A DNA stretch of 64,000 nucleotides from Oidiodendron maius Zn (Eukaryota; Ascomycota; Leotiomycetes; Myxotrichaceae): assembly GCA_000827325.1 (NCBI GenBank), contig KN832873.1, positions 2,122,245-2,186,244 of the forward strand, written 5' to 3'. A program made the position numbers and the translations under genes. The notes below the pieces were generated by a model. The model saw only the letters and a list, made by a program, of their open reading frames with translations, was not told the origin of the DNA and ran no database searches. This document shows positions 36,440-49,313 of this stretch, piece by piece; the stretch's first letter is position 1; every line of letters begins with the position of its first letter.

Positions 36440-37769
36440 ACCAACTTCCTCTCTATCTCTCTCCTTTGTGCCTTATATTTTTCTTCCTAAAAGTCAATGC
36501 CTCTCCCCACCTTCACTAAAGCCCTCCTTATCTTCTCACGATAACAGCCTTTCCCCTCCAAGTTAGATGTCCCACATTCAAGAGCCGCCTCCTGTCGTCG
36601 TGGGCTGCGCTGTTGGAAGGGTTCGGGAGGACAGAGATTCGGCGGGCTCGGGACGAGGTCGTCGATAGGTAGGAGTCGCGGATCGTTCGAGCGCATTCGG
36701 CTACCGTAGAGTATCTCGGAACGGAGAGTAAAATTGAAGGTGTGCCTTTTGTTCCTTCCCGTCGTCGGATTATTTTTCGAGCCAGGAGGGGGAAGGGGTC
36801 ATATTTTGAGGCACGGAGGTAAGTTGATCAAATCCCAATGGGGCAGTGAGTGACTGGACGGGAGGGCGTTGCTCGCTTAGTCAGGGATGTGCACAGCAAT
36901 CGTGCCTCTTGAACTCACTGGGGTGGTGGGGATGATAAAGAATCCTTCTACTCCAATCAGCCGAGCTATGTCTTTAAGTACAGTATGTGAGAATTAAATC
37001 ACACAATATACTCTCATTGGAACTTGATAGATGCTCCAAAGACTACACTCTCCTAGGTTCTTGATACAAATCTTAAAATAGTATCACATGCTAGTCCCGT
37101 TTCATTTGGACGCGCAGATCAGTTCTTTTGCAGACCTTTTGGTGAAATGCCAAGCCTCAGGGGAAGGATATCCAAAATCCAAAGTCATACTGCGAGATAT
37201 CAAGAGACACATCTGAAAGGGAGTTTATTTAATCACACAGTATCGCAGGCCACCATGAACATGCATATCATATCTTGAACCGCTCATCTCATTTTCCTCA
37301 TCTTCAGCATTCCCTCCTTGCATTTACGGACCAGAGAGAAAAAGATACGACCCAGTTCCACTCCTAAATGACTGTCTCCGGTATACAATAGAGCTGGCAA
37401 AGAGGAAATCCTCTCTACAGCGACGTGAGATAATTAGGAAAAACCAACCAAACGAACAAAACGATGCCGCCGCTTCCCTTGACACAAGAGCTGAGCCGAG
37501 CTAAAGCCAAAGCTGTTATATGAGGCTTTGATCGCCCCTTAAATAAACACCTTATCCAGAAACGCCGTCGCCATATAACAAACGGAAGAAAATTACCAGG
37601 GGTCGCTTCAGCAAAATAATGTGCCACAAACTCGCTATGATGGTATCATCCTAAATGGTAATCGTGGTGCTGTGACGCTGCTATCAGATGCGAATCTAAC
37701 TACTGTGGAAGCGTATGATGTGCTGCTACCACTTAGCATGAGTGGATGGTGTTGGATGTGAGCGCAGTG
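36440..37769. other. Intergenic, kinase promoter and NIK1 3' side
   Basis: 1.3 kb, no gene evident. The kinase promoter is expected in the first part and the NIK1 3' UTR at the far end. Confidence 0.45.
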
Positions 37770-40700
37770 TCATCTCACTCTCGACAAAACGTCCTCTTGA
37801 TCAGCCGAAGCTAGAGAAGGACTCTCCAAGCTACCGTGGGATATCGGCCCTGTTGTTGTGAATGGTCTTGGCTGCATGGGTGGTCGCAGCGCACTTGTAG
37901 GGCTTGGCCTGGGTGAGGCATTATCATTATGTCCGGCAGCATGCTCGTCGTTGGTCGACGGCCGCACATCTCTGCCTTTCTCTAACAAGGCACCACCCAA
38001 AGTTGCACATTTTAAGATGGTCTGTATCAGATGGTTCTGCTTGAGAGGCTTCGAGAGGTATTCGTCCATCTGGGCCTGAATGCATTTCTCTCTATCGCCA
38101 AGCATAGCGTGTGCCGTCAAGGCAATGATAGGAGTCCGCTGCGTTCCGATACTGCGTTCGTACTCCCGGATCTTCGCAGTAGCCTCAAATCCTCCCTGAT
38201 TGCTTGTTAGTATATCAATATATACAGAGTCTAGCAGCACTCACCATAATGGGCATCTGAACATCCATGAGAATGACATCGTATCTCTTCTCCTTGACAG
38301 CATCGAGAGCTTCCTGACCGTTGCTCACGACGGTTACAACGTGGTGGTACTTTTCCAAGATTTTGACTGCTAGGCGCTGGTTGACGACGTTGTCCTCCGC
38401 GAGGAGAATATCGAAAGATTTCGTGTTATCTGCCAAAGATGGTGCAGCCCTATTCTCTAGAGCAGGGATCATACCATTGCCTAGATCAATCGTCAAGCAT
38501 GGCGTCGTCATATACGATGTAATACCCAGATCCAAGGCAGCCTTCAAGCTGACATGCACAACGGGAGCCAGCAGAACGATCGGGATATACTTGAACTCAT
38601 CGATCGACCTCAGGTTCCTTGCCATCTCAATTGAGTCTACGATAATGACATCGTAAGTCGATGCCGCCTCTGTTGCTCCTTTAAGGCTGACATGGCGCTC
38701 AGAATTTACCACCACTGGCACAAGACCAATCTGCTCTAACATGTGCGCAATTTCTCTGCCATGGCCAGTGGTTCCCTTGTCAATGAAGAGTACATTGTGG
38801 CCATGATATGGCTTGAGTGGTTTCTGAATGAAGGAGATGTCCGAGGTGGCGAGACGGACCGTGCAGGTGAAGAAGAATGAGCTTCCTTTGCCATACTCGC
38901 TCTTGACCCAGACGTCACCCCTCATTAGGTTAACTAGTCTCTTTGAGATGGATAGTCCTAGACCTGTTCCGCCAAACTTCCTGGTCATAGATCCATCCGC
39001 TTGCTGGAATGTATCGAAGATGAGATCGAGCTTATCTGCTTGTATACCAATACCAGTGTCCGACACAGAGAACTCCACTGCGTACTCATTCGGTGCGCAG
39101 TGATCTTGCTCCGCCTTTCGGATTGTCAGGGAGACCTCACCATGCTCAGTAAACTTAATGGCATTTCCCACCAAGTTCAGGATCACCTGCCGTAGACGGA
39201 ACGAGTCCCCGACCACGTGATCCGGTACCGAGCTGTCTACGCGATAAGTAAGGTCCAAGAACTTTTCATTTGCCTTCACAGCGAGCGTCTTCAGCGCGTT
39301 AAACACTGTGCCACGAAGAGTGTACGGGATCTCCTCCATGATCATGCGGTTCGCTTCAATCTTAGACAGATCCAATATATCATCGATAATCGTTAGCAGG
39401 CTGTTAGCAAGATTGTGCACGATGTTCAACATCTCGCGTTGGTAATTCGTAAGATCCGTATCTAGAGTTAACTGGGTCATTCCAATGATCCCTAAATTTT
39501 TGATGTTAGTTTCTAATTGCTCTTTGGGTTAGAAGTAAAGTACCGTTCCTTGGTCGGTGTTAGCAGTTGTTCGTTGATATGATTTTAGATGTGATGGATG
39601 AAGCAAACCAAAGAAATGAAAAAAAAGGAAAGGCAAAGTGGTTGATGAAGTCCAGGAGAGGAGAGTCCTGAATCTTCCATGAATGGTAGGTGGGAGCATC
39701 TTGCCGTGCCTTCCTTCAAAAATCCATATTCCCGCACCACTTGACCGTGATTTACAACCCATGTAGAGAGAGGGCAGGGGAGAAGAGTACAACAAAAGAA
39801 AAAAGGGGATTTACATTGGAGTTCGGATCTCATGCGACATGTTGGCCAAGAATTCTGACTTTGTCCGGTTGGCGAATTCGGCAGCTTCCCTGGCAGCAGT
39901 GTTCCTCTGAATGCTGTCTCTCAAATTGAATACCATCTGATTGATCTTGCGTTTCAGTTCGTCCATTTCCCCGGATGCTTCAACAGTGATCAACTTCGTG
40001 AAGTCTCCGTCTGTTGCAGCATTTGTGATATCACCGAAGGCTCTGACTTGTGCAGTTAAGTTCATTGCCATGGTGTTAACATCTAGAACCCCGTTAGCTT
40101 TGATACTCCGATGACAAGCGACAAGTTGTACCTGTAGTAATTTCCTTCCACCTTCCACCGATACCAGCAACATCGGCTTGGCCACCCATCTTTCCGTCGA
40201 CGCCGACATCCTTGGCCACCCGCTGCACCTCGTTCGAGAAGATACTCAAACGGTCGACCATGTTGTTGATTGTCTCCTTCAATACGAGTATCTCACCTGC
40301 AGCCTCAACTTCGATCTTCTGACTCATGTCTCCATTGGCGATGGCCTGCGTGACAGTCGATATACCACGCACTTGGGACGTTAGATTACTGGCCATGGTG
40401 TTGACGTTCTCGGTAAGATCCTTCCACTTTCCTTCGACATTGTCGACCTGAGCCTGGCCACCCAAGGTTCCGTCTGTTCCGACCTCCCTAGCAACTTTAC
40501 TGACTTCAAAAGCGAAGGTGCCTAACCTGTCCACCATAGTATTGATTGTGTCCTTCAAAGACGCTATTTCTCCCTGCACCTCGACTCTAATCTTCTCGGT
40601 TAAATCCCCCTTGGCGACAGCGGTCGTGACCTTAGCAATCTCACGCACTTGTGTCGTCAAATTCATAGCCATGCCGTTAACATTCTCAGTGAGATCCCTC

Positions 40701-42233
40701 CATGTTCCTTCGACGTCATGGACAGTTGCCTGACCACCAAGTTTACCTTCCGTCCCGACTTCACGGGCAATCTTCGTGACTTCTTGAGCGAACTGTTGGA
40801 GCTGGTCCACCATGGAGTTGATAGTCTCCTTGAGCTGTTTAATCTCGCCCTTGCATTCGGCACGCACTTTCTGCGTCAAATCTCCCTTTGCCACAGCTGT
40901 AGTAACCATTGCTATGTCTCGTACTTGGGTCGTGAGATTATTGGCCATAGCATTGACATTCACAGTCAAGGTGTTCCACATTCCCTTGACTCCATCAATC
41001 TCTGCCTGACCGCCGAGGATACCCTCCGTCCCGACATCTCTAGCCACACGTGTGACTTCTGCGGCAAAAGTCCTCAGTTGATCCACCATGGTATTAATAG
41101 TCTGTTGCAGTTGCAGGATTTCACCCTGGGCAGGTCGCTGAATCTTCTGCGTTAAATCTCCGTGGGCGACTGCAGTTGTCACGGATGCGATTTCTCGCAC
41201 TTGGTCTGTGAGATTCTGGGCCATAACGTTCACTGCAGGATGTCAGCTTCTGTTGTGAGAGAAGTAGTGTGATGCTGAGAGCAACGCAAATGGAGGCGCG
41301 GGTTCCTCTGCCGGGGAGGGCGGGCATACCGTTATTCGTTAACTCCTTCCAAGTTCCGTCAACCCCTACGATCTGGGCCTGTCCACCCAAGATACCCTCG
41401 GTGCCCACTTCCCTGGCTACACGAGACACTTCGCTGGAAAATATTTGAAGTTGGTCCATCATAGTATTGATGACCTAGAACACAGGTTAGCCTATAATCA
41501 AATTTATGCTGCACACGACACCACATACCCTCTTGAAAGTAGTAATTTCGGGATCCATCTCCACCGAGTGGATCTGAACCTTTTTGCTCAGGTCACCCTT
41601 GGCCACAGCCGTGATAATTTCTCCTATTTCCCTCAACGCCTTCTGGAAAGCTTCGTTGGCCTGCTGATGTTTCTTGAGCTCTCGCTCGAGGGCTGCCACG
41701 CGCTCAATCTCCAGGACGGAGAGCGCCTTCTCCTGCAGCTGCTTCTGCTGCAGCAGCTGGTCATTCACCATCATCAGCTCGGACTTCTGGCTCGACAGTT
41801 GTTTCGATTGATTGTCCACATGCTCACGGAGAGTCTCGAGGTCCTCATCGGTCAGTTTAGTGAACTTCGGGGGGCGCTCTCCAGCGGGCGCGTCCCTCGA
41901 GGCCAGCAGAGAGTTGACGAGGTTTTGCCGCGACGCAGCGTTCTTCGCGTTCCGGCCGGTGAGAACATCAGCGAAGGCGGACGGCGATCCAATCTCGTTG
42001 GGGGTATCCGGTAGGTTCTGGATGTTGGCCACCATCGAGGCCTTGGTCTCGAGTGTCTGCACGCGAGCCACGAGGGCGGCGATCTCGCGCTCGAGGCCAC
42101 GCTTCGCTGGTGTGTCAGGCCCGGGGAGCTTGACGCCCTGGCTCTGGAAGTCGGGCGGAGGAGCGTGGATATTTGTGGCAAGACATTGTAGGATGGCGGA
42201 TGTGGCCGCAAAGGCCGAGTCGTATTCGATCAT
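37770..42233 (-). CDS. NIK1: Group III hybrid histidine kinase (os-1/Nik1)
   Basis: Seven exons: 41529-42233, 41330-41474, 40132-41232, 39815-40082, 39544-39548, 38245-39491 and 37770-38195, giving 1298 residues, the size I recall for Neurospora Os-1. It is the osmosensor above the Hog1 MAP kinase pathway and the sensitivity determinant for phenylpyrrole and dicarboximide fungicides. A short N-terminal region and coiled coil lead into six HAMP repeats of about 92 residues ([26 protein letters not shown] and similar). The H-box [14 protein letters not shown] (His734) is completed by a 5-nt microexon. Then follow the N-box [24 protein letters not shown], and [14 protein letters not shown]. The receiver domain has [13 protein letters not shown] (Asp1151) and the tail is Pro/Arg/Ser-rich. 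No transmembrane segment, as usual for the class. Confidence 0.96.
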
Positions 42234-44197
42234 TGCCGATGAGGCGATGGCAGCCAGGACTGGCCGCGGGGATCGATGAGCGGTGGCTGGCTATCCTGAA
42301 GGCATGAAGATATGACTCGTCGGGAAGAGACTCGTTAGACCGAGGAGGGCGACCGCTGGCGGCCGAGGATCGAGGGCGAGGGCGAGGGCGGTTGTGCAGC
42401 TGTCTAGAAGGAGAGGAGAGGTCGAGCGAAGGTCAGAAAGGAGAGAGGCGTCTAAAAGATAATGATCCACTAGGTCCAAATCGGCGTCACTAACGATGGA
42501 GAGGGGGTAGCAGTCGTGGACCAACACACGTGAGAGAGGCAGGATAGGGCACGGTAGCGCACCGGCGAGGATGCTCGACTCGCCCGACTCGACTCGTCTT
42601 ATCCTCTGGACACTCCGGCCACAGTGGTGATGGGCGTTGGAAGGGGATGGGCGGATGGTGGTTAAGAGCCGGTGTGCCAGATGCGGCAGAAGTCGAGAGG
42701 CTCAATGCCAACGGACAGACCAGCACTGGTGGACGGGCTTCTCTCACACGCTCGCTCTCCAAGACCCCCCCCTTGTCTCCGCAGCGTGCCGATTCAAAGT
42801 GCTTAGAGGCCCCACCCACAGAGAGAGAGAGACACAGTGGCGACCAAGGAGATCGCGGATCGACGAAGGGGATCAGAAGAGGCCAGGAGAGGGATGCAGA
42901 AGCCTGACAGCGACAGACCAAGCTCTAGAATCGAGGAGTTCACCTCTGGGATCAGTGGGTTCGGCAAAGGGTGCATCCACATAGAGAAAGAGAGGCAAAC
43001 AGGCCGTGGGAAGACACGACAAACCCGCCGGACGAGACGAAACGAGAACGGGACAGGAACAAGACGGGTTGGCCTGAGGACAAATGCCGCAACGGATTTA
43101 GGAGTGCAGGGAGACACACCATTGGTTGAGAATGATGAAATTGTTAGTCATCCAAGCCCTAGCCAATCATGAGGCCCGACCGAGAGCAGCAGCACAATGA
43201 CGGTGTGGCGGCAAATCCATGCTCGAGGATTGCCTGATGGGGAATGGACGAGTACGGGGGGGGACGATCAGAATATGGGCGGGAGAAGTACCGCGGCGAT
43301 ACAAGGGCAGGACTGATACAACAAGATAGAAAGCAGAAGAGGGATGTCTGAAAGAGCCTCTCTTGTCACGACCAAAAGGCAGATAAACCATCTATCACTC
43401 TAGCACTCGATCAGTCAAGCCAGGTATCGAGCAAGCATCCCGCCTTTACCGCAACACAGCCTTCCCATCATCCCCTCTCCATTTTTCCCCTATGGTCCTA
43501 CGTAGCACATATTCAGTGCCCCTTCGCACATTAGAGTCGTACCACCAAGCACAGCGCAGACAGGTAGTCACCTGGATCTGCACCCCCTATTTTTCCCATG
43601 CACCTTTCATCTCCCTCGCAATCCACGTGAGCGGCTTCCAATGAGATCTTATCTGCACCGGCCACCCACTGATCCTGCCTGCCCGCGAACCTGTCAGCCA
43701 AAAGAAATGCCCGCCCAGAGTCCCCCCACCCCTCTCCTCCCAAACAAGCGGCCGCCGGCTTGCTTCATTCGTCCGCCAGCTCCGAGGAAGTTTCAGCGCC
43801 AAGTACACTAACTAGGATTTCTCTTCGCTGGGAACGGGGAGGGGTTCGCTCGCTTGGCAGGCTCAGTATGCTGAGGGGTTTGGATTTTCGATATTTAAAG
43901 TACATCTGTACCGTACCTTAACGCGCTTTGGCAATGGCTGATGGTGGAGGCTAAACTGGGTACGGTAATGGATGAAGGCGACGGACGAGGGCATGCTCGA
44001 CGTTGGCAATCGCAATTTTTTTACTTCTCGAGCTGGATATGTACTGTAATTAGTAGAACTCACTCCCTTTGTTTTACCGACAGATCACACCAGCAGAGCA
44101 CAATAACAATATGGTATCGCTGCAAACGCCAACCCACGCCGTCATTCATTATATGATATACCCACCGCCATTTTAAAACATCTCCCCTCTGCCACGC
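42234..44197. other. Long upstream region of NIK1
   Basis: About 2 kb without a supported gene. A GA-run occurs near 42821-42833. Reading frames up to 143 codons exist but look random. It probably carries the NIK1 promoter and long leader plus the 3' end of the Munc13-type gene. Confidence 0.45.
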
Positions 44198-47100
44198 TTA
44201 TCGTCGAGGCAGATTATTCGGCCCAAATCGTGGCCCACCCCCCGTCGCCAGGCTCTGGCGGACGATCATCTCGGCGGCGGCGGCAGCCGCCAGCCGTTCC
44301 CTCTGTCGGCTGCGGTCCCTCAGGTACGGTGCGGCCTCTGGGCGCATGCGCAGGATGCGTAGGATCATGTCGTCGCTCGGGTCCGCCTGGGCCTCTTTTC
44401 GCTTCTCCTCCTTGGCCTTCTTCATCGTGCCTAGGTTGCGGCTCAGCATAATGCTCTTGGTGCGTCGCATCGATGTCGACCCGAAGATGCCGCCGAAAGA
44501 CGGGCCTAAGCTCGCCGGCGCGGATAGACGGTTGCGCTGGGCCTGCGCGCGCTGGGCTGTGGCCGTGGCCATGCGCTCCGAAGTACGGATGAGGTTGTCC
44601 GTTGTGTCGAAGTAGAAGAAGTTGAGTGATGCCAGTTCGCTGTACTTGGGCGACTTGAGCACCTCGGCAGGCACGCCCATGGTCTCGCCCGTCTCCTCAT
44701 CTTTGGCGTTGAAGAATCCGAAGAGCAGCTCGAGCCAGCGGAATACAATGTCCAGTTCCTGTTGCGTGAGAGGTTTCTGGTTCGAGGGCTTGTCTGAGAG
44801 CGGGGGAACCAACAGGCCTTCGAGAGCTAGCAAGACCTCCTTCCATAATCGAGTCATGACCATGACCATCGACGCCTCCGTCAGCGTCTGTTTCATGATG
44901 GCGAAATTCTCGTCAAAATAAGTAAAGAGGGGTTTAAGAGCATTTTCGATATCCATAGGTGTCACCGTAGTGGATACAGATTGACGGTTCCTCCACAAAT
45001 TCGATACTGCCCCCGAAAGGCCCCGCGACATCAAGTGCTTGAGAGCATCTAGGGACAGCGATGCATTGATATATTGTGAGAGCTATACTGTCAGCCACGT
45101 CTAGAATTTCTCGCGCAAGGGCATACCTTATCGGTAATCCGCCGGATCATGTCCCTTTCTGTCCTCTTCAACAGACGGAATGCTTTGGCGAAGTAAAACT
45201 CAATATCGTCTCGTTCCCCTTCCATGCTGACACGTAAAAGTAGCCTCCCCTGCGTATCCAGGTTCAGCCAGTACTCCCGAGGCATGTAATCGCTGAAGTG
45301 CATTGGGTCTAATTTCAGAGAGGTTCGTCCCACGTAGTCGTGGTCGCCGAAATTGTCCCAATCCCAGACAGTAGCTATGATGTTCAATGCCCCCTGTACA
45401 GTAATATCCACTGATTCGTCCCACCGAGGGTTGAGATTCTTCATCACAACTCTGGTCTTAGCCAGACGCTTTTGATACTCATCCCCCAAGACTACATAAG
45501 GGTCGCTAGATCCGTTAGCATCGCAAGCCTTCAGCTCTTCTGCCTCGACAATTTTTATCGTAAAGACATGCTTTGACGGTCTCCGCTTCTCTTTTATCGG
45601 CGCGTGCTTGGCAAGCACTTCAGCACAGGCATCCACATTCATCATATTTTCGAGGGTATCTAACTGTTGAGTGGCGTATTCAATATTGTTTAGTTTGACG
45701 AAAGACTAAGACGCTTAGCAGCCATAACAAGGAAACAGAGGACGCCTGGCCTACCTCAGGATAGAATTGAAATGGTTCGATCTTCTCCTTATTGTTCCAG
45801 ACATCTTTTGCGAGCTGCATCCACTTCTCCTGTGACGTCTGTGAAGCCGCGGCCACCTGAGCTGGGGTGAGTCTCTCCATCTCTTTCGAGAATCTCTGTT
45901 CGATGACTTCGCAGTACCTTCCTAAACCCATGCCAAAAGATTTGGCTAGAGCAGTCATGAATTTTGCGTACTGCACATCATCGTCCCAATTGAGCTGGAA
46001 TATTTGATCGGCGGTCTGGTTGAACAAGCGGAAGATATCAATGACAGAAACACTGTGCCGCTCATCATCTGTGGCCGGTACGTCAGGATTAGTCGATCGA
46101 ACCTGGAATTGGTCTTGCTTAATTGCCTCGTCAATGAGCTCGACCATCTTCGAGTCGGCTACGCGGATCCATCTCCACACGAAATCTGCGAGTAGCTCTT
46201 CGATATGAAAGGAGAATGGTTTGTCTGGGAGTGCAGAATGATGTATCCGACGTAACTCAACAAGTTCTCTGTACAAGGCAAAGCCGTCTTCCAAATCAAC
46301 TTCCGAGTTATTGGTCTGGGCCACTTGAAGAATGCGCTGGATCAGATCTCTTGCGTCATTCTCAAAGCTAGGGAACATTGTCTCGACGAGGACCGTCAAA
46401 ATGTTGACCCTCATTACCTCGGGATTCTTTCGATACCTCTTCTGGATTCTCTCACATAGCTTAACCACAGATTTTCCGAGCTGCACAACGTGAGAAAACT
46501 GCCATTCGTCTTGGTTCTGTGGGACCTCTGCCTCTAGGTAGCCTCTGTATACCGCTGCAGCTTGGGAACGAAGGCCTGTGGCCAGCTGTTCCGTGTATGA
46601 TTGAAGTTCATCTGGGTTCTTAGTGAATGAAGCATCGCCATAAATGTGTTCCTCCAAGACGAGCATGATGGAGCCTGCCGACGGCGGCTTGGGTTCGTAG
46701 CAGTGTTGCAGGATGTTATAGAGGTCGCGTAGAAGAGCTTCGTGCAGATTTGAGAGAATTTGGTGGTACATAGCGAAGTCTTGAACAGTCCAATGATGCT
46801 GATCAATTGACGACAGACTCATAGAGTGTGAATGCGTATTCGAGCGTTTTGTCTCAGGGGGAGGGTTCTTAATAAACTCGAAAGTAGAGTCCAGTTCAAC
46901 AAGACCAATCTCTTGATCTAAAAACTTCTGCGCCGTGACATCCAAGAACAAAACCAGCCTGGAAAACTGAGGAATGCGCCAGCGAATACACAATTCTGTC
47001 AAAAGCTCAATGGACTTCTTTGAAAGTGGCGGTGGTGCGGTACCACCCTCCGTTGCTTCTGGGGCATGGAGAAGATCGAAGGTCATGACGTGCATAAGGA

Positions 47101-48331
47101 TGCATCGATAGTACGCACGCGGGTCTGGTGGTATGAATGTGAATGACGGTTCGTCGGGAGTACTCTGGCTAGGTGAATCATCCTCGAGGCTCAAGAAACT
47201 TGTGTCTGAGGGGATTTCAATATTCTGCGGTCGACTCTGAGTCGCAGGAGTTGGTGCAGCAGGTTTTGGCGCAGCCGATTGTATTTGCTCCCCCTCGGTG
47301 ACGGCAGGCTTCGTCGCGTCAGACGATGCCTTTACGAGCTCCGGTCGAGCCTGCAAGATCTCAGCTATCATCTGCGACAAATCTGGAGTTTCTGCTTTCT
47401 TCCATGCTTGGTAGCCCTCTTCGAGGTCAAAATCGACGCTGCGTAGCGTCCGCTTGGTATCGTCATTGAGGCAATGCTGATATGCCTTGAGATCTGCGAG
47501 TGCAGCTTCTTCTGTCCATATGCTCTTATGCGCATCGATATCCGACTGAACCTGAGAGTTCTTTAGGCCAAATATTTTCGCCACGACCAAGACCAATTGC
47601 ATATCCTTAACATCGTAACTAATAGGCACAATCACCTCAATGGCTGTATCACTAGAATCGACAGTGAGATCTTGATCATTTGTCAGTAACTTATTTTCCA
47701 GCGTCGACAGCCTACTCATGAGCTCCGGCCGATCCTTATCGTTCCCAATATCTTTCAGCGTTGCGCTGATCAGACGCACAAACAGGGCAACGTGCCGGTC
47801 AACTAGGAGCTTCCAAGAGTCGTCTTCTGGAGTTTTGCCTTTCTGTAGGGACTTTGTTGCATTCGAGTAGAATATAAGAACGAGATCCTCCACTCGTCGC
47901 TCCTTGTCCATACGCCTCCGGAAACCCTGCTCGGTAAAAGCGGTATAGGCCTCTGCAAAGGTTCGCTTGACTGCTGCATCATTGTACCCAGGGAGCCTCT
48001 CCTTGCCGATTAGAACACCTTGTATCCTCTTTTCCAACGGTGACATAAAACCGTGTGGGAATTTTGCAGTCTTAGAGTCTTTGACGGGCGAAAAGTCCTG
48101 CATCAATTCCCCGACGTTTGCGGACTTTTTGGCGGACTTTGGGGCAGAGACGTACTGCTTTCTCTTTGCTCGTGGCTGGAGGAGATGGTGAAGATAGGCA
48201 GCCCTGAGAGCAAATGTGTATGCATCATTGTAACTGACAGTTTTCGTCCGGGGCCGCGAGATCTTGCGGATGAGAGGGCCGATCTGACTACGCCGGTTTG
48301 CTTTGCGCGAGCTCGCGGATGCGGTCGACAT
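44198..48331 (-). CDS. ync13: UNC-13/Munc13-family protein with C2 domain (Ync13-like)
   Basis: Exons 45755-48331, 45127-45705 and 44198-45082, all phase 0, give 1346 residues. The N-terminal half is long and helical, with a Pro/Gln/Ser linker about residues 330-400. The MHD1-like region precedes exon 2. A C2 domain at about residues 904-1010 starts KHVFTIKIVEAEELKACD with DPYVVLGDEY and VWDWDNFGDHDYVG, holding acidic Ca2+-loop residues. MHD2-like helices follow, with a basic C-terminal tail rich in Arg. The order MHD1, C2, MHD2 matches fungal UNC-13-like proteins such as fission yeast Ync13, which links exocytosis with cytokinesis and septum integrity. The role here is inferred from that layout. 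Confidence 0.87.
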
Positions 48332-49313
48332 TGTGTTGACCGGGATGGCTCTTCACAGCCGGCGCATGCGTCGCGAGGAGGGGATTCGGAAGGGAGAGGG
48401 AGAGGAGAAGTTGGCAAATTCCAGTCCACGAGTCGAGAAAGGCGAGTACGAGGATTTCTCAGTGGCGCTGATCGGCCGGACAGGAAGGAAAGGAGTGAGA
48501 CAGTCGCAGAGCTTGATCGCGCGTGAAGATGAAGAAACGAAAGAGGCAAACGGAAAGGCAAACACAAGCCTCGCAGCGGCGTCGTTGCAGGATGCTCGCT
48601 GCGATGTGTGGTTCCGTTTCACGACTGAGGGGCCAACGACGACTGTACGAAGGTACCACCGTGCTACCGTCCTTGGAGGTGGAGGTATGGTGGGGACAGG
48701 GACGACACGGCCGCAGCCTCATCCGGCGGCCAATCACCGGCCCCGCCCGGAAGGTTGGGTGTGGCTGATGAAGGTGTGGGCCGGTTGTGGCCTGAAAAAT
48801 CGACAGTGCGGATCACTCCAAGAAGATTAGGTAATCAGCTCGATCCTTCGTAACAGTACATAGATAGAGTAAAGGACGGCAGCAGGAAGTGGATATCGCG
48901 AGGGACTGCCTAGAGAACCCTCGTCGATATCTCAGACCGTAGTTCTTATGTCCAGTTCTGAGCAGACTCCGCCTTTAACCCCTCACACTCAGCCGTACCT
49001 CAGCAACATTCCAGCAGGCAGTCGGGTAATCACGTGACATCTACCGCGGTCTGTCATGGATCCGGGCATGGCGGTCGTTTAAGTAGGTGGACAGACGTCG
49101 TCCATTGATACTTCCAGGGCCAAGCGGTGCCGCACTCCTCAAGCTTCATTCCACCGCCAGCCCATTGCCGCCCGCTCACTTTCCTTCTCCCCAGTACCGT
49201 CTGGCCTCCCCCATGAGTACCTCTACCTCGCACGTCAAGTATGCGCTGTTCGGCTTCGGGCTGTGAGGGAAAGTACCACACCGGACCATATCACTGCCAA
49301 CCATCTCGATACC
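48332..49313. promoter_or_regulatory. Divergent promoter, Munc13-like/F-box
   Basis: About 980 nt between two divergent starts. GC-rich, with no domain-bearing frame and no specific site I can name. Confidence 0.4.

Follow-up and report, generated by a model that had tools for sequence, protein, structure and literature searches.

Very short exons have been reported in several fungal genes. Among ascomycetes, the nank genes of Tuber melanosporum are described as containing multiple codon-sized microexons (Iotti et al. 2012, as cited in PMC4986451), and a 20-nt microexon is reported for Trichoderma Xlr2, where it had been missed by the gene model (PMC11121469). The abstract of the latter paper states that no functional microexons had been described earlier in filamentous fungi, a statement of priority against which the Tuber report seems to stand. 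In basidiomycetes, the smallest exon given for bglA of Sirobasidium magnum is of 5 bp (PMC9142197, Table 3), and the shortest exon given for the P450 genes of Phanerochaete chrysosporium is of 6 bp (PMC1184071). Outside the fungi, a constitutive exon of only 1 nt is reported for Arabidopsis APC11 (PMC4674806).

The locus discussed here lies in a window of 64,000 nt of the Oidiodendron maius Zn genome, the whole stretch of DNA that was analysed. From its sequence we conclude with high confidence that it carries an intact-looking gene of the NIK1/os-1 type, the phosphoacceptor H-box of which is very probably split by two introns placed only five bases apart, so that a presumably constitutive 5-nt exon, GAACG, lies between them.

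A group III kinase gene and its paralogue

Group III kinases take part in osmosensing or in the phenylpyrrole response in vivo, and the family is important for the response to osmotic stress and fungicides. Pfam searches on the exons of the gene in the window identified HAMP (four stretches in exon 3 and one in exon 4), HisKA, HATPase_c and Response_reg domains. HAMP repeats preceding HisKA, HATPase_c and a receiver form the layout of the group III (NIK1/os-1) hybrid histidine kinases, and by this domain layout the predicted protein is a member of that group. The gene model, with exon ends set by reading and an assumed start codon, is the following.

41529..42233, minus strand: NIK1 exon 1, 705 nt; the ATG at 42233 is the assumed start, and the ends were chosen by reading
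41330..41474, minus strand: NIK1 exon 2, 145 nt; intron positions common to the paralogue
40132..41232, minus strand: NIK1 exon 3, 1101 nt; HAMP repeats, 96% amino acid identity to the paralogue over 366 residues
39815..40082, minus strand: NIK1 exon 4, 268 nt; carries the phosphoacceptor His, its last residues being ..SHEIRTP followed by AT
39549..39814, minus strand: intron 5' of the microexon, 266 nt, phase 2; GTAAAT...AAG, with CTAAC at 39563-39559, scored at 12 nt from the acceptor
39544..39548, minus strand: microexon GAACG, 5 nt; the G of Met, AAC for Asn and the first G of Gly
39492..39543, minus strand: intron 3' of the microexon, 52 nt, phase 1; GTACTT...TAG, with CTAAC at 39509-39505, scored at 15 nt from the acceptor
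38245..39491, minus strand: NIK1 exon 6, 1247 nt; GIIGM.., the remainder of HisKA, HATPase_c and the start of the receiver
37770..38195, minus strand: NIK1 exon 7, 426 nt; the remainder of the receiver and the C-terminus

Splicing of the seven exons (705/145/1101/268/5/1247/426 nt) would yield a protein of 1,298 residues (1,299 codons with the stop) with no internal stop. Upstream of the kinase gene and on the same, minus, strand, an open frame with a MUN (Munc13-like) domain is found at 45680-48352.

A second intact-looking group III kinase gene is present in the same 45.9-Mb genome (L094, G000:C10:1733500-1742500, with the gene at approximately 1734.97-1739.60 kb; also L011 and L013). Of 1,251 aligned residues, the two proteins share 1,029 (82%), a value that rises to 96% in the part from HAMP to the H-box, and four other introns agree in place and phase. 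The duplication looks old, since the synonymous divergence is undefined over the whole gene, as at saturation, and reaches 2.6 in the N-terminal part. In the paralogue, the H-box is interrupted by a single 609-nt phase-0 intron (CCG/GTGAGT...AAAATTTAG/ATGAACGGTATC, with slashes at the exon borders) positioned two bases upstream, and the microexon is absent, so that the latter is not common to both copies. After the CCG codon, ATG AAC GGT ATC is encoded without a break in the paralogue, giving P-M-N-G-I-I-G-M. This confirms which residues are to be expected, MNGIIGM being made of the same residues in both kinases.

Reconstruction of the H-box

In the window, the exon that ends at 39815 reads ..GAGATCCGAACTCCAAT, the 266-nt intron terminates with CTGCTAACACCGACCAAG directly before GAACG, and the 52-nt intron terminates with ACTAACATCAAAAATTTAG, the following exon starting from 39491 with GGATCATT (GGATCATTGGAATG). 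By joining AT, GAACG and GG, the codons ATG AAC GGG (M-N-G) are obtained and, with the subsequent ATC ATT GGA ATG, the motif MNGIIGM. The predicted junction is ATGAACGGGATC when the microexon is included and ATGGATCATT when it is skipped. The preliminary description had placed the GTAAAT donor at 39814, GAACG at 39548-39544 and the next exon from 39491, with an AAG acceptor, a GCTAAC branch site and a GT donor around the microexon; the positions are all correct, and the signals were all found, the branch site as CTAAC and the donor as GTACTT. Its further claim that a direct joining of exons 4 and 6 shifts the frame was also confirmed: skipping of the microexon leads to a premature stop, with a predicted product of 768 residues that ends 34 residues past the His. 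Retention of the upstream intron would produce an immediate stop, and that of the downstream intron a stop after 13 codons. Some other mis-splicing events, corresponding to 19 two-intron models, would leave the frame open.

The last models bring in an alternative explanation, namely that a different donor, acceptor or small exon serves to complete the H-box, the presence of GAACG being coincidental. GT-AG models were enumerated from 10 GT donors and 14 AG acceptors near the junction, the minimum intron length being set to 45 nt and no more than a single small exon, not longer than 60 nt, being allowed. With this set of GT-AG introns, none of the single-intron models is open, which argues against a different choice of splice sites, and 20 of the 152 two-intron models are. 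Only one of the latter, that with GAACG, gives the exact H-box, and it also ranks first by summed splice score (25.7), the runner-up (19.7) deleting the phosphoacceptor His. Against the HisKA profile, the model with the microexon reaches 79.3 bits, and the four runners-up among the 19 other open models 66.5, 64.3, 53.0 and 40.5 bits. One of these other models, with a small exon of 2 nt at 39739-39738, would give SHEIRTPIGIIGM and retain a HisKA score of 66.5 bits, but its splice score is 18.6 as opposed to 25.7, and the Asn present in the paralogue is dropped. We regard this explanation as very unlikely; among the models tried, inclusion of GAACG is the only choice predicted to yield both an open kinase frame and the exact H-box.

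The Pfam profile leads to the same point from a different direction. HisKA positions 2-17 are matched in the upstream exon and positions 19-65 in the downstream exon, so that exactly one residue is absent when the microexon is left out. The four best matches among solved structures run without gaps through the junction, with MNGVLGM or LNGILGF (RTPMNG/RTPLNG). Other kinases of the same genome differ at this position of the H-box (PLIG, PIGG, PLNG and PLHG). A HisKA match with one in-frame TAA (SHELRSPLHG..MDQM-stop-GFS) was observed at approximately 1509-1740 of L009, where the TAA could reflect an intron or a damaged gene.

With respect to more distant proteins, bacterial HAMP-repeat kinases (L014-L093), the best 80 of 576 matches in the genome collection, show a best-segment identity of 65-70% to the fungal protein. 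No fungal record is found among these best 80, and the viral collection gave no fungal relative with the kinase exon or with the HAMP exon. Of these 80 bacterial loci, 74 hold an H-box motif, and Asn occupies this position in 74 of 80 motifs, a few of which come from neighbouring kinases; the bacterial H-box belongs for the most part to a different type (SHELRTPLNSLLIL and similar), so that these loci bear only on the Asn.

The required pattern AGGAAYGGT has one match in the 64,000 bases when both strands are considered, for an expected 1.06, and at least one match is found in 59 of 100 shuffles, so that its presence somewhere in the window is ordinary, whereas its location in this intron and on this strand is not. 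When the intron was shuffled 20,000 times with its dinucleotides preserved, the pattern, flanked on each side by 45 nt or more, was present in only 20 of the shuffled sequences, in 3 of 20,000 when a YTRAY branch site is also required, and in 1 of 20,000 when the branch site is CTRAC. These values also bear on the possibility that the gene is damaged or mis-assembled, exon 6 having lost its beginning and the gene yielding no functional kinase. Comparison with the paralogue might suggest so: its exon opens with ATGAACGGT after a similar acceptor, AAAATTTAG, and the corresponding segment of the window is AAAAATTTAG/GGATC. However, a loss of this kind would leave unexplained both the AT that precedes the donor and a GAACG set between an AG and a GT with its CTAAC branch site, an arrangement as infrequent in the shuffled introns as just described (20, and with CTRAC 1, of 20,000), and the remaining kinase frame is open. 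Damage or mis-assembly is highly improbable. A genome search that passed over simple repeats and very common words found no other copy of the junction region, which matched only itself.

A zero-length recursive splice site, in which an AG is joined directly to a GT, was also considered and ruled out: GAACG separates the AG from the GT, and the product requires it.

The initial proposal that the GAACG microexon completes the H-box of a NIK1-type kinase is supported on four counts: the logic of the reading frame, the enumerated splice models, the Pfam profile and the paralogue present in the same genome.

Splice signals, order of intron removal and origin

Splice signals were scored with a model based on 66 introns of 45-124 nt (median length, 58 nt; median branch distance, 13 nt), which were inferred de novo, rather than annotated, from 264 kb that comprise the window and its surroundings. 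This model replaced a version with stricter thresholds that yielded only 6 introns, and it includes two introns of the kinase gene, neither of which adjoins the microexon. The search extended up to 129 nt only, so that the model gives no measure of how unusual an intron of 266 nt is. The donors flanking the microexon fall at the 18th and 24th percentile of the 66 introns; the AAG acceptor is at the 6th percentile (AAG being used in 4 of 66) and the other acceptor at the 27th. The splice sites of the microexon are inside the range of the 66 introns, but on its weak side. Both flanking introns carry CTAAC, the commonest branch site (21 of 66), a frequency that is biased because the selection of introns rewards such sites. 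Microexons being defined as exons of up to about 30 nt with canonical splice sites on either side, GAACG has 5 nt, AAG and GTACTT at its borders and CTAAC branch sites.

The preliminary description had also suggested that an exon this small may depend on special cis elements, a suggestion that did not find support. The RNA fold across the introns is nothing unusual (z, −0.17; 40 of 100 shuffles fold equally well), no match at the gathering score was found in Rfam over 37000-43600, and the repeats in 39480-39830 are limited to two direct pairs, both short and imperfect, and an inverted pair of 10 nt. With the splice sites also in range, nothing special in cis was found.

The two ends of a 5-nt exon would be too close for splice factors to bind both together, so that the introns would have to be removed successively. 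The 52-nt downstream intron would most likely leave first, by intron definition, and GAACG would thereby be fused to an exon of full size; the 266-nt upstream intron would follow, through the AAG acceptor. Intron-definition splicing is a plausible scheme, to be taken as a reasonable inference. With respect to origin, a single intron occupies almost the same position in the paralogue, and because of this the microexon may derive from the placement of a second intron 5 nt away from an H-box intron that was already there. In the simplest reading, one old H-box intron would have shifted by two bases in one copy relative to the other, and the second one would have been either gained 5 nt downstream in the window copy or lost from the paralogue.

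Constitutive inclusion of GAACG is the default reading of the sequence. Regulated inclusion would turn the microexon into an on/off switch of the kinase, skipping leading to mRNA decay or to the 768-residue protein with HAMP repeats and the His but without ATPase and receiver domains. The truncation expected from skipping, or from retention of either intron, and the position of the splice sites on the weak side are compatible with such a switch, and the microexon of Trichoderma Xlr2, reported to be controlled by glucose (PMC11121469), provides a precedent. On the other hand, no regulatory sign is seen in the sequence, where fold and Rfam search were both unremarkable, and a microexon of a length not divisible by three can be constitutive, as reported for the 4-bp exon of MPC1 (PMC9929638). 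A switch is, on balance, improbable. The same applies, with somewhat greater reserve, to the specific version in which stress would lower microexon inclusion, shutting off the osmosensor kinase while the microexon-free paralogue would keep working.

Comparison with known tiny exons

With fungal exons of 5 bp, 6 bp, one codon and 20 nt already in print, GAACG would belong to a rare, already known kind of gene structure. The Tuber nank genes are similar in having tiny exons in a filamentous ascomycete, but, as they are described, these are multiple and alternatively spliced for diversity, whereas here a single 5-nt exon is required for the frame of a conserved signalling kinase. The S. magnum exon is of equal size and also fungal, but bglA, as tabulated, is a basidiomycete glycosidase gene of 17 exons. 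The P450 genes of P. chrysosporium share very short exons adjoining short introns, and differ in that they are many genes of one basidiomycete family, for which alternative splicing was proposed in that report. Trichoderma Xlr2 is similar in that an ascomycete microexon missed by gene models completes a conserved protein motif, and different in the length (20 nt) and glucose regulation reported for it (PMC11121469). The 4-bp exon of MPC1 (PMC9929638) and the 1-nt exon of APC11 (PMC4674806) are also microexons of lengths not divisible by three, both reported as constitutive and both non-fungal. By analogy with Xlr2, an automatic gene model that overlooked the 5-nt exon would presumably give a wrong or broken kinase H-box.

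The literature searched, which consisted mostly of papers available without subscription, showed no such exon in the group III kinases of fungi. What is new here is that the group III kinase gene with the predicted microexon is accompanied by a microexon-free paralogue in the same genome, 82% identical and with four matching introns, in which the H-box is crossed by the single 609-nt phase-0 intron. The two genes form a natural pair for studying how a spliceosome of fungal type deals with exons below the size that exon definition allows, and in which order the two introns are removed.
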